Positions 55,195 to 64,000 of a stretch of DNA of 64,000 nucleotides are shown here, one piece after another; within the stretch, counting starts at the first letter, position 1, and each line of letters starts with the position of its first letter. Under the pieces are notes generated by a model, which was not told the origin of the DNA, made no database searches, and worked only from the letters and a program-made list of their open reading frames with translations. A program made the translations under genes and the position numbers. This DNA comes from Pseudomonas poae. GTDB lineage: Bacteria > Pseudomonadota > Gammaproteobacteria > Pseudomonadales > Pseudomonadaceae. The stretch is taken from contig CP110972.1 in the NCBI GenBank assembly GCA_028869255.1, positions 5,370,001 to 5,434,000 on the forward strand, given 5' to 3'.

Positions 55195-56142
55195 TCAGGG
55201 TTTCAGGCTTGCCTGTACCGCCGCCAAGCCATCACCCCCCTCAAACGCCTTCACCCCGGCCAGCCAGCGCTGCAAGTCCTCGGGATGATCACGCAGCCAC
55301 TGCCTGGCCACGTCCTGGGGCGACTGGCGCTCCATGATCGGCACCATCAACTGGCTTTCCTGGGCGGCGGTAAACGTCAGGTTGGCAAGCAGGCGATTGG
55401 CGTTGGGGCAGCGCTCGGCAAAATCCGGCGCGGTGACGGTGGAAACAGTCGCCCGGCCTTCATCGGGGCCGAATACGTCTTCGCTGCCGGTGAGGTAGGC
55501 CATTTTCATATTGATATTCATCGGGTGCGGGGTCCAACCCACGAACACCACGAACTCCTTGCGGTTCACGGCACGCTGCACCGCCGCCAGCATGCCCGCC
55601 TCACCGGAGGCCACCAGCTTGAAGCCGCCCAGGCCGAAATGGTGGGTGTCGATCATTTTCTGGATATCGGTATTCGCGCCGCTGCCGGGCTCGATGCCAT
55701 AGATCTTGCCGCCGAGCTTGTCCTTGAAACGGGCGATGTCGGCAAAGGTTTTCAACCCGGCATCGGCCACGTACTGCGGCACGGCCAGGGTGGCCTGGGC
55801 GTCGGCGAGGCTGGGGGTGTCGAAGACTTTGACCTGCTTGGCGGCCAGGAACGGCGCGATGTTGTTGTCCATCGCCGGTTTCCAGTAGCCGAGGAAGATA
55901 TCCAGGCGCTTGTCGCGGATGCCGGCAAAGATGATCTGTTGCACCGCGCTGGTCTGTTTGCTGTCGTAGCCCAGGCCGTTGAGCAGCACATCGGCCATGC
56001 CGGACGTGGCGATCACATCGGTCCAGCTGACCACGCCCATGCGCACGGTTTTGCAGGAGGCCGGCTCGGCGGCCATGGCGTGCGCACTGAGCAGTGCAGC
56101 GCCGGTGAGGGTCAACAGGTAACGGTTGAACAGTCTTTTCAT
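55195..56142 (-). CDS. Quaternary-amine (choline/betaine-type) periplasmic binding protein, orphan
   Basis: A 315-residue OpuAC/ChoX-family protein with a signal peptide (ends AHAMA). The aromatic box for a trimethylammonium head is visible: W40 (VVSWTD), W87 (GYWKPAMD), Y124 and W203 (VGWTPHPMN), positions close to those of rhizobial ChoX. It has no permease or ATPase beside it, like the orphan CaiX/BetX binding proteins that share the Cbc transporter in other pseudomonads. ATG 56142 is chosen; the upstream frame runs through a REP element. Ligand could be choline, betaine, carnitine or, given the hut genes nearby, a histidine-derived betaine. Confidence 0.88.
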   Translation of the reverse strand: MKRLFNRYLLTLTGAALLSAHAMAAEPASCKTVRMGVVSWTDVIATSGMADVLLNGLGYDSKQTSAVQQIIFAGIRDKRLDIFLGYWKPAMDNNIAPFLAAKQVKVFDTPSLADAQATLAVPQYVADAGLKTFADIARFKDKLGGKIYGIEPGSGANTDIQKMIDTHHFGLGGFKLVASGEAGMLAAVQRAVNRKEFVVFVGWTPHPMNINMKMAYLTGSEDVFGPDEGRATVSTVTAPDFAERCPNANRLLANLTFTAAQESQLMVPIMERQSPQDVARQWLRDHPEDLQRWLAGVKAFEGGDGLAAVQASLKP

Positions 56143-56278
56143 GAAAGAGGTCTCACTCGGCAGCTTTATTGTGGGGAGTGGCGTCTGACGCGCCGTACCC
56201 ACAACCTTACCCAGCGGGATCTCGGTTAACACGAACTGTGGCGACCGGCAGTTGCACTGGGGCGACCGAGAGGCCGCC

Positions 56279-56361
56279 TTCGCGAGCAAGCCCGCTCCCA
56301 CACTTGACCGAGTTCAATCATGAGAATGCGGTCAAAATGTGGGAGCGGGCTTGCTCGCGAA
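56279..56361. repeat. REP pair, tail-to-tail, downstream of hutG
   Basis: A reversed unit ending GCAAGCCCGCTCCCACA (56279-56302) and a forward TGTGGGAGCGGGCTTGCTCG unit (56338-56361) are perfect inverses around 35 bases. It sits between hutG and the orphan binding-protein gene and probably separates their transcripts. Confidence 0.85.
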
Positions 56362-56384: not shown

Positions 56385-57185
56385 TTACCGGTAGCGCTGC
56401 TGCCCCCAGGCCAGCAACCCTTCCAGCAATTGCTTTAATACCACCCGCGTCGGTTCAGCCAGGTCCGGCCGATAACGAAACGGCTCAAACTCTTCCATAT
56501 ACGCGCTCTGGCACAACTCCAGCTGCACCGCGTGAATATCCTGCCCCGGGTCGCCATAGTGCCGGGTGATATGCCCGCCCTTGAAGCGCCCGTTCAGCAC
56601 GTGGGTGTACTGCGGATGGGCGGCGCAGATCGCTTCAAGCTGGCCGGCCAGCTCAGGATCACAGGACGCGCCATTGAAGGTGCCGAGGTTGAAGTCCGGC
56701 AGCTTGCCGTCGAACAGGTGCGGGATCACCGAGCGAATCGAGTGCGCATCGAACAGCAGCGCATAGCCGAACTCGGCCTTGAGCCGCGCCAGCTCTTCTT
56801 GCAGGGTGCGGTGATACGGGCCCCAGACCTTTTGCAGGTAGCTGGCACGTTCCGTCTCGCTCGGCTCCAGCCCCTCGCGGAACAACGGCACGCCGTCAAA
56901 CAGCGTGGCCGGGTACAGCCCGGTGGTCGCGCCGGCGTACAGCGGCTTGTCGTCGGACGGCCGGTTGAGGTCGATGACAAACCGCGAATACTCGGCCGCC
57001 AGGGTGCTGGCGCCCAGCGCTTCGGCAAAGTCATACAGCGCAGGTATGTGCCAGTCGGTGTCCGGCAGGCTTTGCGCCTCGGGGATCAACCCGGCTTCGA
57101 CCGCAGGCGTGAGGCGCAGGCCGGCATGAGGCATGCTGATCAGCAGCGGCACGCGACCTTGTTTGAAGTTCAGAACCTTATCCAC
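56385..57185 (-). CDS. hutG: N-formylglutamate deformylase
   Basis: A 266-residue enzyme that ends the five-step histidine pathway by releasing formate from N-formylglutamate. SMPHAG, FVIDLNRPSD, LLFDAHSIRS and KGGHITRHYGDPG are the family's metal/substrate motifs. The start is GTG 57185 with GAGGAG 7 bases upstream. Twelve bases separate it from hutI. Confidence 0.95.
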   Translation of the reverse strand: MDKVLNFKQGRVPLLISMPHAGLRLTPAVEAGLIPEAQSLPDTDWHIPALYDFAEALGASTLAAEYSRFVIDLNRPSDDKPLYAGATTGLYPATLFDGVPLFREGLEPSETERASYLQKVWGPYHRTLQEELARLKAEFGYALLFDAHSIRSVIPHLFDGKLPDFNLGTFNGASCDPELAGQLEAICAAHPQYTHVLNGRFKGGHITRHYGDPGQDIHAVQLELCQSAYMEEFEPFRYRPDLAEPTRVVLKQLLEGLLAWGQQRYR

Positions 57186-57197
57186 AAAAAATGCTCC

Positions 57198-58403
57198 TCA
57201 AACAGTGACGTCGACGCCATGGCGCACGACGCGTTTATCCAGCTCGCCGCCCAGCCAATAAGCCAGGTCAGCGGGGCGATCAATCTGCCAGGCGACAAAA
57301 TCCGCAACCTTGCCGACTTCCAGCGAACCATGGGTGTTGCCCATGCCCAGCGCGGTGGCCGCATGTTGCGTGGCGCCGGCCAGGGCTTCTTCCGGGGTCA
57401 TGCGGAACAGGGTGCAGGCCATGTTCAGCATCAGGCGCACCGACAACGCCGGCGAGGTGCCTGGGTTGAGGTCGCTGGCGATGGCGATCTTCACACCGTG
57501 CTTGCGCAGGGCGTCCATCGGCGGCAACTGGGTCTCACGCAGGAAGTAGAACGCGCCCGGCAACAGTACGGCGACAGTGCCCGAGGCGGCCATGGCGATG
57601 GCGTCTGCTTCGGTCATGAATTCCAGATGGTCCGCCGAGAGTGCGTGATAGCGTGCCGCCAGGCTGGAGCCATGCAAGGAGGAAAGCTGCTCGGCGTGCA
57701 GCTTCACCGGCAGGCCCAGTTGCTGGGCGACCTTGAACACGCGCTCCACCTGTTCCGGGGAAAACGCCAGGTATTCGCAGAAGGCGTCCACCGCATCCAC
57801 CAGCCCTTCCGCCGCCAGGGCCGGGAGCATCTCGTTGCAGATGTGATCGATATAGTCGTCGGCGCGGTCCTTGTACTCCGGCGGCAACGCGTGGGCCGCC
57901 AGGCACGTGGCGCGCACGCTGACCGGCAGCGCGTCGCCGAGGCGACGAATCACCCGCAGCAATTTGCGCTCGCTGGCCAGGTCCAGGCCGTAGCCGGACT
58001 TGATCTCTACCGTGGTCACACCGTCACGCAGCAAACTGCGCAGGCGCTTGTGAGCGCTGGCGAACAATTCATCCTCAGTGGCGGCGCGGGTGGCGCGCAC
58101 GGTGCTGGCAATACCGCCGCCCTTGGCCGCGATTTCGGCGTAGCTAACGCCCTCAAGGCGCTGCTCGAACTCGCCGCTGCGATTGCCGCCGAACACCGTG
58201 TGGGTATGGCAGTCGATCAGCCCGGGGGTCACCCACGCGCCTTGCAGGTCATGCACCTGGGCGTAATCCGCCGGCGGCACTTGGCTGCGCGGGCCGACCC
58301 ACTCAATGAGCGAGCCTGCAGTGACCAGGGCGGCATCCTCGATGATCGAGTATTTGCCCTGGGCCATGGTTGCGACGTGGCAGTGTTGCCAAAGCGTTTT
58401 CAT
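57198..58403 (-). CDS. hutI: Imidazolonepropionase
   Basis: A 401-residue amidohydrolase-family enzyme that opens the ring of imidazolone propionate. Metal-binding [12 protein letters not shown], substrate and metal residues in KLHAEQLSS, and ALSADHLEF are visible, as is the Asp of [12 protein letters not shown] 58403 has GGGAGG 5 bases upstream; TTG 58406 would be too close. Between hutT and hutG in one run. Confidence 0.96.
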
Positions 58404-58418
58404 CAACGCCTCCCTAAA

Positions 58419-59828
58419 TTAACGATGAGACAAAGCCGGGTCGTAGTCGACCTTGGCCGCTTGCCCCGCTGCGGGCTTGACCCACAGCAGGTAAGCCACC
58501 ACCAGCAACACGATCCACACGGCGCCGACCAGCAAGGCCGCCTGGGTGTCCGGGAAGTAACCCAGCACGCCAAATACAAACAGCATGAACGCAATGGCCG
58601 CCGCTGGCGCATAGGGCCAGAACGGCACCGGGAATTTCAGTTCGGCCACCTGTGCCTTGCTCATCGAGCGGCGCATGGCGACCTGGGTAAACAGGATCAT
58701 CAGCCACACCCACACGGTGGCGAAGGTGGCAATCGAGGCGATCAGCAGGAACACGTTTTCCGGGATCAGGTAGTTGAGCACCACGCCGCCCAACAGCGCT
58801 GCGCCCATCACCACCACAGTCATCCACGGCACGCCGTGCCTGGACAACTGCGCAAAGCCCTTGGGCGCCTGCCCTTGCTGAGCTAGGCCGTACATCATGC
58901 GGCCGGCGCCGAAGATGTCGCTGTTGATCGCCGAGACGGCTGCCGAGATCACCACGATGTTGAGGATGGTCGCTGCCGAGTCAATGCCCAGGTTGCTGAA
59001 GATCTGCACGAACGGGCTGCCCTGGCTGCCGATCTGCGGCCACGGGTAAATGGCCATCAAGACAAACAGGGTCAGCACGTAGAACAACAGGATGCGCAGC
59101 GGCACCGCATTGATCGCTTTGGGAATCACGCGCTGCGGGTCTTTGGCTTCACCGGCGGTGATGCCGATGATTTCGATGCCGCCGAAGGCGAACATCACCA
59201 CTGCAAACGAGGCGATCAGGCCGCCGATGCCATTGGGCATGAAGCCGCCGTGGGCCCACAGGTTGCTCAGGCCGCTGGCTTGAGTGTCGCCGGCCGAATG
59301 AATGCCGAACAGCATGATGCCGAAGCCGCCGAGGATCATCGCCACGATGGCGCCGACCTTGAGCAGCGACAGCCAGAATTCCATCTCGCCAAACACTTTG
59401 ACGTTGCACAGGTTCAGGCCGCCGATCAAAAACACGATACCGAGCACCCACACCCACCGCGCCACGTCGGGAAACCAGAAACCCATGTAGATGCCGAAGG
59501 CGGTGACGTCGGCGAGGCAGACGATGATCATTTCAAAGGCGTAGGTCCAGCCGAGGATAAACCCGGCCATGGGGCCCAGGTAGGTGCTGGCGTATTGGCC
59601 GAAGGAGCCGGCCACAGGGTTGTGCACGGCCATTTCGCCGAGGGCGCGCATCACCATGAATACGGCGGCGCCGCCGATCAGGTAAGCCAGCAGCACGGCA
59701 GGCCCGGCCATCTGGATAGCCGAGGCGGAGCCATAGAACAGCCCGGTGCCGATCGCGGAACCGAGTGCCATGAAGCGAATATGTCGGGCGCTGAGCCCGC
59801 GTTTCAAACCTTTTTCTTGCTGGTGCAT
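58419..59828 (-). CDS. hutT: Amino-acid permease, probable histidine transporter HutT
   Basis: A 469-residue APC-superfamily permease with 12 predicted helices and the amino-acid permease start [19 protein letters not shown]. Its place between hutH and hutI identifies it as the histidine transporter of the hut operon; specificity is inferred, because ProY and similar permeases look alike. AGGACGAG precedes ATG 59828. Confidence 0.9.
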
Positions 59829-59988: not shown

Positions 59989-61521
59989 TTACAGGCTCGG
60001 CAGCAACTTGGCCGGCACCAGCTCGTTCAGGCAGCGGCTGGCGAGCAGCTCTGTGGCGGCGATGATGTCCGGGGCGAAGAAGCGGTCCTTGTCATAGAAG
60101 CCCACTTTGGCGCGCAGGATGCCACGGGCGGTTTCCAGCTTTGGCGAGGTTTTCAAACCTTCGCGCAGGTCCAGGCCCTGGCACGCTGCCAGCCATTCCA
60201 CGGCGAGGATGCCACGGGTGTTCTCAGCCATTTCCCACAGGCGCTTGCCGGCAGCCGGGGCCATGGACACGTGGTCTTCCTGGTTGGCCGAGGTCGGCAA
60301 ACTGTCGACGCTGTGCGGATGAGCCAGCGCCTTGTTCTCGCTGGCGAGTGCCGCAGCCGTCACCTGGGCGATCATGAAGCCGGAGTTGACCCCACTATTG
60401 CCCACCAGGAACGGCGGCAGTTGCGACATGTGCTTGTCCATCATCAGCGAGATACGACGCTCGCTCAGAGAGCCGATCTCAGCGATGGCCAACGCCATGT
60501 TGTCGGCGGCCATGGCCACTGGTTCGGCGTGGAAGTTACCGCCGGAAATCACATCACCCTCAGCGGCAAACACCAGCGGGTTATCCGACACGGCGTTGGC
60601 TTCCACCACCAGCACTTCGGCGGCCTGGCGGAACTGGGTCAGGCAGGCGCCCATGACTTGCGGCTGGCAACGCAGGGAGTACGGGTCTTGCACCTTGTCG
60701 CAGTTCTGGTGCGACTGCGAGACCTGGCTGCTGTCGCCCAGCAGGTCGCGATAAGCTGCAGCCGAATCGATCTGCCCACGTTGGCCACGAGCGGCGTGAA
60801 TCCGCGCATCGAACGGCGAGCGCGAGCCCAGCACGGCTTCTACAGTGAGGCCGCCACAGGCCAGGGCGCCGGCGAACAGGTCTTCGCCTTCGAACAAGCC
60901 ACGCAGCGCATAGGCGGTGGACACCTGAGTACCGTTGAGCAGCGCCAGGCCTTCTTTGGCGGCGAGGGTCAGCGGCGTCAGGCCGGCGACTTTCAGCGCT
61001 TCAGTCGCTTCCAGCCATTCACCTTTGTAGCGCGCCTTGCCTTCGCCCAGCAGCACCAGGGACATGTGCGCCAATGGCGCCAAGTCGCCGGAGGCACCGA
61101 CCGAACCTTTGAGCGGAATGTGCGGGTACACCTCGGCGTTGATCAGCGCGATCAGCGCGTCGATCACCTGGCGACGGATCCCGGAGAACCCACGGCTCAG
61201 GCTGTTGACCTTGAGCACCATGACCAGCCGCACCAGCGCGTCGCTGATCGGCTCACCGACGCCGGCGGCGTGGGACAGCACCAGGGAACGCTGGAGGTTT
61301 TCCAGGTCTTCGCTGGCGATGCGGGTCGAGGCCAGCAGGCCGAAACCGGTGTTGATGCCATAGGCGGTGCGATTCTCGGCGAGAATCTGCTCCACGCAGG
61401 CCACACTGGCTTCGATCTGGGCCGAGGCGCTTTCATCCAGACTGAGGGTTACCGGCTGCTGGTAGATGGCCCGCAGTTGGGCAAGGCTCAGTTGGCCTGG
61501 AATCAGATTTAGCGCAGTCAC
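59989..61521 (-). CDS. hutH: Histidine ammonia-lyase
   Basis: A 510-residue enzyme that removes ammonia from histidine to give urocanate. [14 protein letters not shown] holds the Ala143-Ser144-Gly145 triplet that cyclises to the MIO electrophile. Other active-site residues are Tyr54 (YGINTGFG), Asn196 (LLNGTQ), Tyr281 and the Arg in [10 protein letters not shown], and the Glu of [11 protein letters not shown] 61521 is preferred over ATG 61527: AAGGAG is then 7 bases away and the length equals that of P. putida HutH. A paralogue lacking MIO lies just upstream. Confidence 0.97.
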
Positions 61522-61560
61522 ATTCATGCTCCTTTGAATTATTCTTTTGAATATAAGTGG

Positions 61561-63084
61561 TCAGTGCAAATGGGGTAATACGCGGTGCAGCAAAGTCGTA
61601 TCTTTGAGCAGCGCGGCGGTCGTTGCGATATCCGGCGCCAGCCAGCGGTCCTGCTCGTACGGGGAGATCTGTTCACGCAACAGCCGCCAGGCGCTGCCGG
61701 TGCCCGCGCCGAAACGCTGGTCCTTGAGAAACTCGAACGCCTGGGCCGCCAGCAGGTACTCGATGGCGAGAATCTGCGTGACGTTGGCCAACAGCTGATG
61801 CAGCTTGAGCGCGGCATTGGTGCCCATGCTCAAGTGGTCTTCCTGCAGGCCCGAGGTGACGAAATTGTCGAGCACCGCCGGTTGCGCCAACTGGCGGTTT
61901 TGCCCGCACAGCGAGGCGGCGACGTACTGCACGATCATCATCCCGGAGTTGACCCCGGGGTTGCTCACCAAAAATGCCGGCAAGCCGCTGACATGCGGGT
62001 TGATCAGGCGGTCCAGGCGGCGTTCGGCCACCGAGCCGATTTCGGCCATGGCGATGGCCAGCATGTCGGCGGCCAGGGCCACAGACTGCCCATGCGGGTT
62101 GGCCTGGGACACCACGCGGTAGTTGTCCGGGGTGCCGAGGACCAGCGGGTTGTCGGTGGCGCTGTTGAGTTCGGTCTCGACCTGGAGAGTGGCGTGTTCC
62201 ACCTGGTCACGCGCCGCACCATGGATCTGCGGGATCGAACGGATGCTCAAGGCGTCCTGGGTGCGAATGCCTTTGCTGCTGGCGATCACCTCACTGCCAT
62301 CGAGCAGCGCACGCAGGTTGATGCCGACGTGCTGCATGCCCGGGTGGCGCTTGAGGGCGATGATTTCTTCATCGAAGGCGTCGATCTGCCCACGCTGGGC
62401 CTCAAAACTCATGGCGCCGATCACGTCGGCCCATTGCAGCAGGTGGTGAGCATCGGCCAGGGCCAGGCAGCTCAGGCCGGTCATGCACGGCGTGCCATTG
62501 ACCAGGCACAGGCCGTCCTTGGCGCCGAGCACCACCGGCTGCAAACCTTCGGCAGCCAAGGCCTGCTGCGCCGAAACGATCTGGCCGCGATAGCTCACAT
62601 TGCCAACACCCAACAACGCAACGCCGACATGCGCCATATGGGTCAAATAGCCCACCGAGCCCTGGGACGGCACTTGCGGCGTGATGCCGTGGTTGAGCAG
62701 CGCCAGCAGCGAGTGCACCACCTGCGGATGCAGGCCGGACTTGCCGTGGCTGTAATTGATGACCGCCGCGCAGATGATCGCGCGGGTCTGTTCGTCGCTC
62801 AGCACCGGGCCGACGCCGCACGCGTGGCTCAGCAGGGTGTTGCGCGACAGTTGGCTGAGTTGCTCACCCGCCAGCGACACATTGCACAGCGCGCCCAGGC
62901 CGGTATTCACGCCATAAGCGCGTTCACCGCTGGTGACAATGCGCTGCACGATGGCCTGGGCATTGTCGATGCGCGCCCAGGCCTGGCCCGAGAGTTCGAG
63001 TAGCGCACCATGGCGGGCGACGGCGACTACGTCCTGCCAGCGCGATGGCGTATCGGCGATGGTGATTTTTGTTGCCTGGGACAT
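61561..63084 (-). CDS. HAL/PAL/TAL-family lyase without the MIO motif
   Basis: A 507-residue full-length homologue of HutH. Where HutH has [14 protein letters not shown] this protein has GSVG-YLTHMAH (from residue 142): the Ala-Ser-Gly triplet that forms MIO is gone through a three-residue gap. The essential tyrosine of HAL is also replaced, DPYSLR becoming DALSIR (Leu279). Other pocket residues stay: Tyr57 (YGVNTGLG), Asn196, Gln276, Arg282, Glu415 (LQEDHLSM). Ordinary histidine deamination is therefore unlikely. From memory, ergothionase of Treponema is a MIO-less member of this family acting on a histidine betaine, so a betaine lyase role is possible. ATG 63084 has GAAGG at 7 bases. Confidence 0.9.
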   Translation of the reverse strand: MSQATKITIADTPSRWQDVVAVARHGALLELSGQAWARIDNAQAIVQRIVTSGERAYGVNTGLGALCNVSLAGEQLSQLSRNTLLSHACGVGPVLSDEQTRAIICAAVINYSHGKSGLHPQVVHSLLALLNHGITPQVPSQGSVGYLTHMAHVGVALLGVGNVSYRGQIVSAQQALAAEGLQPVVLGAKDGLCLVNGTPCMTGLSCLALADAHHLLQWADVIGAMSFEAQRGQIDAFDEEIIALKRHPGMQHVGINLRALLDGSEVIASSKGIRTQDALSIRSIPQIHGAARDQVEHATLQVETELNSATDNPLVLGTPDNYRVVSQANPHGQSVALAADMLAIAMAEIGSVAERRLDRLINPHVSGLPAFLVSNPGVNSGMMIVQYVAASLCGQNRQLAQPAVLDNFVTSGLQEDHLSMGTNAALKLHQLLANVTQILAIEYLLAAQAFEFLKDQRFGAGTGSAWRLLREQISPYEQDRWLAPDIATTAALLKDTTLLHRVLPHLH

Positions 63085-63119
63085 CTTCATACCTTCTTTA
63101 ATTCTTGTGCAGCTTTGCC

Positions 63120-63197
63120 GGCCTCTTCGCGAGCAAGCCCGCTCCCACAGGGGGAATGCGTTCCAAATGTGGGAGCGGGCTTGCTCGCGAAGAGGCC
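63120..63197. repeat. REP pair, perfect 30-bp tail-to-tail inverted repeat, downstream of hutV
   Basis: A 30-base arm (63120-63149) beginning GGCCTCTTCGCGAGCAAGCC is exactly inverted at 63168-63197 around an 18-base spacer. It sits between the ATPase gene and the MIO-less lyase gene on the same strand. The identity extends past the usual 24-nt unit into the GGCCTC flank. Confidence 0.88.

Positions 63198-63221: not shown

Positions 63222-64000
<779 letters not shown>

Follow-up and report, generated by a model that had tools for sequence, protein, structure and literature searches.

HutH1 of the Pseudomonas hut cluster, a MIO-less relative of histidine ammonia-lyase and a candidate trimethylamine-lyase for hercynine

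Hercynine (N-alpha,N-alpha,N-alpha-trimethylhistidine, or histidine betaine) is made by EgtD and is the ergothioneine precursor of fungi and actinobacteria. For Pseudomonas fluorescens SBW25, the statement on its hutH1 gene reportedly goes back to Zhang and Rainey (2007). In the excerpts of PMC8871633, hutH1 is described as a histidase gene dispensable for growth of SBW25 on histidine and HutXWV as taking part in histidine uptake, and those excerpts do not mention the loss of MIO; the hutH1-hutXWV-hutTu arrangement of SBW25 is by gene order the same gene and module as the one analyzed here. The known ergothionases lack MIO (excerpt of PMC13405746), and ergothioneine binding via cation-pi contacts has been shown for a binding domain of a quaternary-amine importer (excerpt of PMC9732360). 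Excerpts of PMC11432326 and PMC9002059 support the residue roles in HAL of Glu414, the loop Tyr, Asn, Gln and Arg, and the conservation of a Met in bacterial HALs. The dispensability of hutH1 on histidine and the MIO-less nature of ergothionase are thus already known. A hercynine assignment or hercynine breakdown by hutH1 and its link with transporters were not found described in the literature searched, with subscription journals mostly outside its scope, and no paper in it combined hercynine, urocanate, trimethylamine and lyase.

The window analyzed here is a stretch of 64,000 nucleotides from Pseudomonas poae. Its hut genes are located on the minus strand in the order hutV, hutH1, hutH2, hutT, hutI, hutG and a gene encoding a choline-type binding protein. 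Upstream, beyond the window, are hutW, hutX, an NCS1 permease gene (hutTu), hutU, hutC and hutF. The features are as follows.

61561..63090 (alternative start 63084), minus strand: hutH1, encoding a MIO-less HAL-fold lyase; open reading frame of 509 residues, assigned by profile and tree
62629..62661, minus strand: loop GSVGYLTHMAH, HutH1 residues 144-154, in place of the MIO loop; MIO serine absent
62239..62259, minus strand: QDALSIR, HutH1 residues 278-284; Leu281 corresponds to HAL Tyr280, Gln and Arg kept
59989..61527, minus strand: hutH2, encoding an ordinary MIO histidase with QDPYSLR, 33 bp downstream of hutH1
63222..64000 (running to 64046), minus strand: hutV, encoding the ATPase of the quaternary-amine-type importer HutXWV; hutW and hutX lie outside the window
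58419..59828, minus strand: hutT, encoding an APC-family permease (profile matches)
57198..58406, minus strand: hutI (position and similarity to annotated hutI genes)
56385..57185, minus strand: hutG (position and similarity in related clusters)
55195..56301, minus strand: choline-type ABC substrate-binding protein gene, directly after hutG (TIGR03414, 433 bits against a cut-off of 379)
63120..63197, no strand: long imperfect palindrome, REP-like, between hutV and hutH1, read by eye

The start at 63084 used in the preliminary description of this DNA is plausible, since this second in-frame ATG has, judged by eye, a better Shine-Dalgarno spacing than the ATG at 63090. The palindrome at 63120-63197 is presumably of the type named REP. 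The promoter scan gave one promoter-like site (0.8 in shuffles) and the terminator scan found no terminator. In this strain hutX (G000:C1:5434969-5435931; L086:6969-7931, just past the window) contains one in-frame stop, while relatives of the strain carry intact copies, so uptake may be impaired here. EgtD was not found in this genome and hercynine as a substrate would therefore come from outside; in the control set of 14 genomes a single match was obtained, and it scored below the cut-off.

HutH1 is currently annotated as a second histidine-degrading enzyme (histidine ammonia-lyase). It matched Lyase_aromatic (PF00221) over its full length (residues 18-473, 545 bits) and reached the cut-off of PRK09367, the broader histidine ammonia-lyase subfamily (544.4 against 524). 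With the NCBI hutH equivalog TIGR01225, HutH1 scored 527.7 bits, under the cut-off of 539.15, whereas HutH2 passed with 726.8. The two proteins share 38% identity. Compared with HutH2, the HutH1 loop is shorter by a net three residues and the MIO serine is gone, in agreement with the Ala-Ser-Gly loss noted in the preliminary description; the change from DPYSLR to DALSIR was confirmed as well, QDALSIR of HutH1 aligning with QDPYSLR of HutH2 and Leu281 with HAL Tyr280. Four residues that had been described as retained, Tyr57, Asn196, Arg282 and Glu415, are Y59, N198, R284 and E417 in the numbering of the 509-residue protein and are indeed kept.

These features were counted in 21 HutH1-type, 17 HutH and six ergothionase-like rows, the deltaproteobacterial Smac51 lyase (L162) being excluded and the Haloarcula lyase left out of the 21. 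Residue numbers in these counts are those of HAL. The Ala-Ser-Gly triplet that forms MIO in the MIO-dependent HALs is lacking in HutH1, and the Ser was absent from all 21 HutH1-type rows. The catalytic Tyr280 of the same enzymes is likewise replaced: position 280 was Leu in HutH1 and in the other HutH1-type rows (21/21) and in the ergothionase-like rows (6/6), and Tyr in HutH (17/17). Tyr53, His83, Gln277, Arg283, Met382, Gln413 and Glu414 were kept in 21 of 21 HutH1-type rows. Three of the ring-pocket positions differed in the ergothionase-like rows: Asn195 (N20 G1 in HutH1-type, N17 in HutH, S3 V1 A1 N1 in ergothionase-like), Met382 (M21, M17, and A4 G1 L1) and Gln413 (Q21, Q17, and V5 I1). 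His83 was altered in four of the six ergothionase-like rows, but not in 6s7j. Phe329 was the reverse case, being replaced in HutH1-type rows (P11 A8 C1 G1) and retained in HutH (F17) and ergothionase-like rows (F6). By the counts at 280, 382, 195, 413 and 329, HutH1 resembles a histidase pocket that has lost its amine-activating part, whereas ergothionases have a remodeled ring pocket as well.

HutH1 thus shares with HutH (TIGR01225; P. putida HAL 1b8f/1gkm) the fold family, the length, the residues for imidazole and carboxylate, the loop Tyr, Gln277 and Glu414, but it differs in lacking the MIO triplet, in the changes of Tyr280 to Leu and Phe329 to Pro, in its score under the equivalog cut-off and in forming a clade of its own. 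Among MIO-less proteins with a solved structure, the Treponema denticola ergothionase 6s7j/6s7q comes closest (224 bits to HutH1); its sequence in 6s7j, aligned via a profile of related lyases, has SSIGEGDITTLSH and LQDPLSFR, with a loop one residue shorter than that of HAL. Both are MIO-less HAL relatives with Leu for Tyr280, and elimination of trimethylamine, the ergothionase reaction, is proposed for HutH1 too. However, the loop loss is three residues in HutH1 and one in ergothionase, the residues at Met382, Asn195 and Gln413 differ, HutH1 belongs to a separate starred clade of the best tree, and the ergothionase substrate carries a thione. The precedent of ergothionase invoked in the preliminary description therefore holds, and is strengthened by the Leu at 280 of 6s7j, while HutH1 itself is unlike ergothionase in clade, loop and imidazole pocket. 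Membership of HutH1 among the ergothionases was unsupported, as both the ergothionase-like pocket and the loop shorter by one residue are lacking.

The alignment with ergothionases and the family tree suggested at that stage placed HutH1 outside ordinary HutH. The tree contained 49 rows, after 22 of the 71 collected lyases had been thinned out and the loop and QDALSIR columns removed. Nineteen proteobacterial HutH1-type rows formed a starred clade (100/99), to which a Priestia row attached (86/92); this clade was separated from 15 proteobacterial HutH (100/100) and from six ergothionase-like rows including 6s7j (100/99). In the best tree the Klebsiella and Smac51 rows fell outside the HutH1 clade, and Haloarcula branched beside a Haloferax HutH; the placements of Klebsiella, Smac51, Haloarcula and 6s7j are unsure because of their long branches. 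AU tests of four groupings rejected none (p 0.114, 0.356, 0.213 and 0.262), including that of all 22 HutH1-type rows in a single clade (p 0.356), so MIO may have been lost once or more than once. The lyase on a plasmid of Deltaproteobacteria bacterium Smac51 (L162) has a short GSVGY loop without ASG, keeps HAL Tyr280 (QDPYVLR) and adjoins a sodium:solute symporter; it may be an in-between state or catalyze another reaction. In the archaeal MIO-less lyase from a plasmid of Haloarcula sp. GH36 (L165), GSADN replaces the MIO loop and the second motif is QDPLSIR. Ala at 382 and Ser at 195 are ergothionase-like in this protein, although it adjoins hutU.

A whole-protein HutH1 search of 398 Pseudomonadota genomes gave matches at E <=1e-20 in 168 genomes. 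The scores displayed a sharp gap, with 23 matches, each in a different genome, at or above 437 bits and the next at 361 bits or less. All 23 top matches had the short MIO-less loop GS[VA]GY, with Leu in place of HAL Tyr280, and the seven matches next below the gap (L124-L130) were ordinary HutH, all with ASG; ergothionase-like lyases, for example in L135, were among the matches further below. The exact DNA pattern for the HutH1 loop was found in 13 of the 398 genomes. Within Pseudomonas, HutH1 was present in 84 of 119 genomes, and GSVGYLTHM[AS]H and QDALS[IL]R were kept in 80 of 80 loci, a set biased towards the loop by its use as one of six search peptides. Since both motifs are kept across relatives, the changes in HutH1 are not due to chance or sequencing error; these and decay are ruled out by the loop conservation in the 80 Pseudomonas loci and all 23 top matches. 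The median dN/dS was 0.106 for HutH1 and 0.065 for HutH2 (81 loci, the 80 plus the window, with some species repeated); hutH1 is intact and under purifying selection.

On plasmids, tblastn recovered 896 records carrying some relative of HutH1, whatever its type, and 17 of these records were inspected. Seven of these carried MIO-less lyases with a short loop (Erwinia, Rhizobium, Aminobacter, Priestia, Klebsiella, Deltaproteobacterium Smac51 and Haloarcula); three of the others were ergothionase-like, five ordinary HutH and two aminomutases. The suggestion that HutH1 catalyzes a different reaction and is not decaying is therefore well supported by the conserved clade across Pseudomonadota, the relatives in Bacillota and in an archaeon, and the purifying selection. 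Scattered loss-of-function changes, named beforehand as the sign of the opposite, were not found in the HutH1 clade.

Ordinary HutH usually accompanied HutH1. Among the 23 HutH1 genomes of the 398-genome search, 22 also carried it (at least 489 bits to HutH2), and a match in the HutH2 range was present in all 28 HutH1-bearing Pseudomonas genomes tested (of 84), sometimes on another contig; in G476 it was in two pieces with an internal stop. The exception was G308 (rated 100% complete, 30 contigs), where ordinary HutH was not found despite hutC, hutF, hutU, hutI, hutG, a BCCT and HutH1. Besides HutH1, the search of this genome found an ergothionase-like lyase and a paralogue of ASG type, the latter 74% identical to L087 rather than a histidase. 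One cluster of G308 (L135, in G308:C26) holds the HutH1-type lyase with a BCCT and the ergothionase-like lyase with an OpuAC-type ABC system.

Neighboring genes within 6 kb were compared by similarity between 33 HutH1-type loci (L131-L154, L165, L168-L174, picked for missing HutX, and L176) and 25 loci chosen as having ordinary HutH only; L156, L162 and the ergothionase-like row of L135 were excluded. An OpuAC/HutW-type or BCCT importer was found at 19 of the 33 HutH1-type loci and at two of the 25 histidase-only loci, both with an OpuAC-type protein nearby. The corresponding p of 9e-5 assumes independent loci and overstates the case, because the 33 include many related Pseudomonas. The other 14 loci had a polar-amino-acid (SBP_bac_3) importer only (11), MFS transporters only (one) or no known transporter (two). 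At 30 of the 33, similarity identified hutU, hutI, hutG, hutF or hutC within 6 kb, the three lacking any of them being L133, L143 and L151. Of the 80 Pseudomonas loci, 79 had an OpuAC-type protein and all 80 an ordinary HutH in the same 6-kb range.

Pairing with unrelated importers recurred in Pseudomonas, in the family of L134 and L135, in two further families of the phylum (L140, L142), and in Klebsiella and Haloarcula. L134 and L135, from the same order as the host, have hutU, BCCT, hutH1, hutI and hutG on one strand (BCCT by Pfam, 391 and 400 bits), and in two Pseudomonas loci without close HutX (L169, L171) a BCCT 74-75% identical to these lies beside HutH1. Plasmid pKP12 of Klebsiella pneumoniae (L154) encodes hutI, hutU, an OpuAC-type ABC system, the MIO-less lyase, hutD, hutC and hutF; a MIO histidase was found neither in this 17-kb stretch nor in the Priestia plasmid stretch. 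On the Haloarcula plasmid, hutU and the MIO-less lyase are accompanied by an ABC system whose binding protein is annotated for glycine betaine. The 17-kb stretch of Aminobacter (L156), which encodes a MIO-less lyase, contained neither hut genes nor a quaternary-amine-type importer; the 17-kb hut stretch of Sinorhizobium meliloti (L155) contained ordinary HutH only and no quaternary-amine importer.

With a threshold of at least 570 bits for HutX, HutX and HutH1 occurred together in 77 of 119 Pseudomonas genomes, HutH1 alone in seven, HutX alone in one and neither in 34. Their starts were 2.7-3.5 kb apart in all 77 genomes carrying both. G439 has HutXWV and hutC without HutH1 and HutH2; this genome and the seven HutH1 genomes without close HutX make a strict link between HutXWV and HutH1 less likely. 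The three E. coli ProX Trp that we take to form its betaine box, at chain positions 65, 140 and 188, each align with a Trp of HutX. HutX, like EgtU and other quaternary-amine importers, belongs to the OpuAC family (PF04069); EgtU binds ergothioneine, while the ligand of HutX is putative (EgtU from the excerpt of PMC9732360).

From the residue changes, their conservation, the clade and the gene neighborhood, we infer that HutH1 is probably a cofactor-free trimethylamine-lyase acting on hercynine and yielding urocanate for HutU. Hercynine would be imported in Pseudomonas by HutXWV and held by HutH1 through imidazole and carboxylate as in HAL, with His89, Asn198, Met385, Gln416 and Glu417 kept for the imidazole, Arg284 for the carboxylate and Tyr59 in the catalytic loop. 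A base, by analogy the loop Tyr59, would remove the beta proton, and trimethylamine would depart without MIO in a 1,2-elimination within the HAL fold. The urocanate formed would be converted to glutamate via HutU, HutI, HutF and HutG. MIO would be unneeded because a quaternary trimethylammonium group leaves readily as it is and has no proton to give up, and it is the parts presumed to activate a free amine, MIO and Tyr280 (now Leu), that HutH1 has lost. The small residue in place of Phe329 could make room for the methyl groups, and the importers repeatedly paired with HutH1, BCCT and OpuAC-type, suggest a quaternary amine as substrate. Several observations count against the hercynine reading: the 11 of 33 loci with polar-amino-acid importers only, L156, the loci L133, L143 and L151 without hut genes, the OpuAC-type protein at two histidase-only loci, the ergothionase-like residues of Haloarcula, Klebsiella outside the clade, the stop in the strain's own hutX, and G439. 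The reported histidine uptake by HutXWV does so too, and argues against an exclusive hercynine role of the importer.

Quaternary-amine importers would equally fit an ergothioneine trimethylamine-lyase, an ergothionase forming thiourocanate, and the fold, the MIO loss and the change of Tyr280 to Leu are common to HutH1 and 6s7j; one clade of core HutH1 with ergothionases was also not rejected (p-AU 0.114). We consider this unlikely in view of the separate starred clade, the loop loss of three residues against one, the unchanged Met382, Asn195 and Gln413, and the separate ergothionase-like gene in the same genome. HutH1 lies in a hut cluster with HutU, and such neighbors appear to favor hercynine over ergothioneine. 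It is rather unlikely, but somewhat less so, that HutH1 expels another good leaving group from a histidine-like substrate and still gives urocanate. Partly N-methylated histidine or another alpha-substituted imidazole propionate are candidates for such a substrate, and the loci with polar-amino-acid importers alone, the retained imidazole and carboxylate pocket and the nearby hut genes would all be in accordance with them; the recurrent pairing with BCCT and OpuAC-type importers speaks for a quaternary amine instead.

HutH1 could also lack activity of its own and serve HutH2 as a partner, for example in mixed tetramers, or as a regulator, which would agree with the constant presence of ordinary HutH near the Pseudomonas loci and with the dispensability of hutH1 on histidine. 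This is very unlikely, since HutH2 is located elsewhere in G405, G420 and G441 and none was found in G308, the Klebsiella and Priestia plasmid stretches hold a MIO-less lyase without MIO HutH, and the equivalents of Tyr53, Arg283 and Glu414 are invariant. Least credible, and highly improbable, is a weak or conditional histidase or an enzyme acting on urocanate, such as an isomerase, for which the urocanate permease HutTu in the module and the HAL-like ring pocket could be cited. MIO and Tyr280 are both absent, and the excerpts of PMC8871633 state that hutH1 was not required on histidine in SBW25. Furthermore, a P. aeruginosa hutH (PA5098) mutant was impaired on histidine (excerpt of PMC12772324), although P. 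aeruginosa is said to carry the hutH1 module (excerpt of PMC8871633).

Beyond the single enzyme, we lean slightly towards a widespread unrecognized module for hercynine utilization, in which a MIO-less trimethylamine-lyase and interchangeable importers (HutXWV, OpuAC-type ABC, BCCT) would feed the hut pathway in Pseudomonadota, with relatives on Bacillota, Klebsiella and haloarchaeal plasmids, hidden under the name histidine ammonia-lyase. If so, the module would add a new source to the biology of trimethylamine and would, in some genomes, be the sole entry into the hut pathway, and bacteria of soil and plants could reuse hercynine while releasing trimethylamine. The dispensable second histidase gene of pseudomonads, hutH1, would thereby have a function, the betaine/choline class of the hutH1-linked importer would be explained, and a systematic misannotation would be corrected. 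For the HAL mechanism HutH1 would provide a test case, a catalyst class without the protein-derived cofactor where the leaving group needs none.

The genome of this strain encodes a second MIO-less lyase, which is ergothionase-like (L088:9348-10739, plus strand, at about 421348-422739 of G000:C1; GSLGEADLAPLAH and LQDPLSFR) and adjoins an open reading frame resembling, by eye, ornithine cyclodeaminase. An annotated pair of an ergothionase-like lyase and ornithine cyclodeaminase is also present on an Alisedimentitalea plasmid (L161). The ergothionase-like lyase on pSymA of Sinorhizobium meliloti (L160) has an N-terminus that looks, by eye, like a signal peptide and is perhaps periplasmic.
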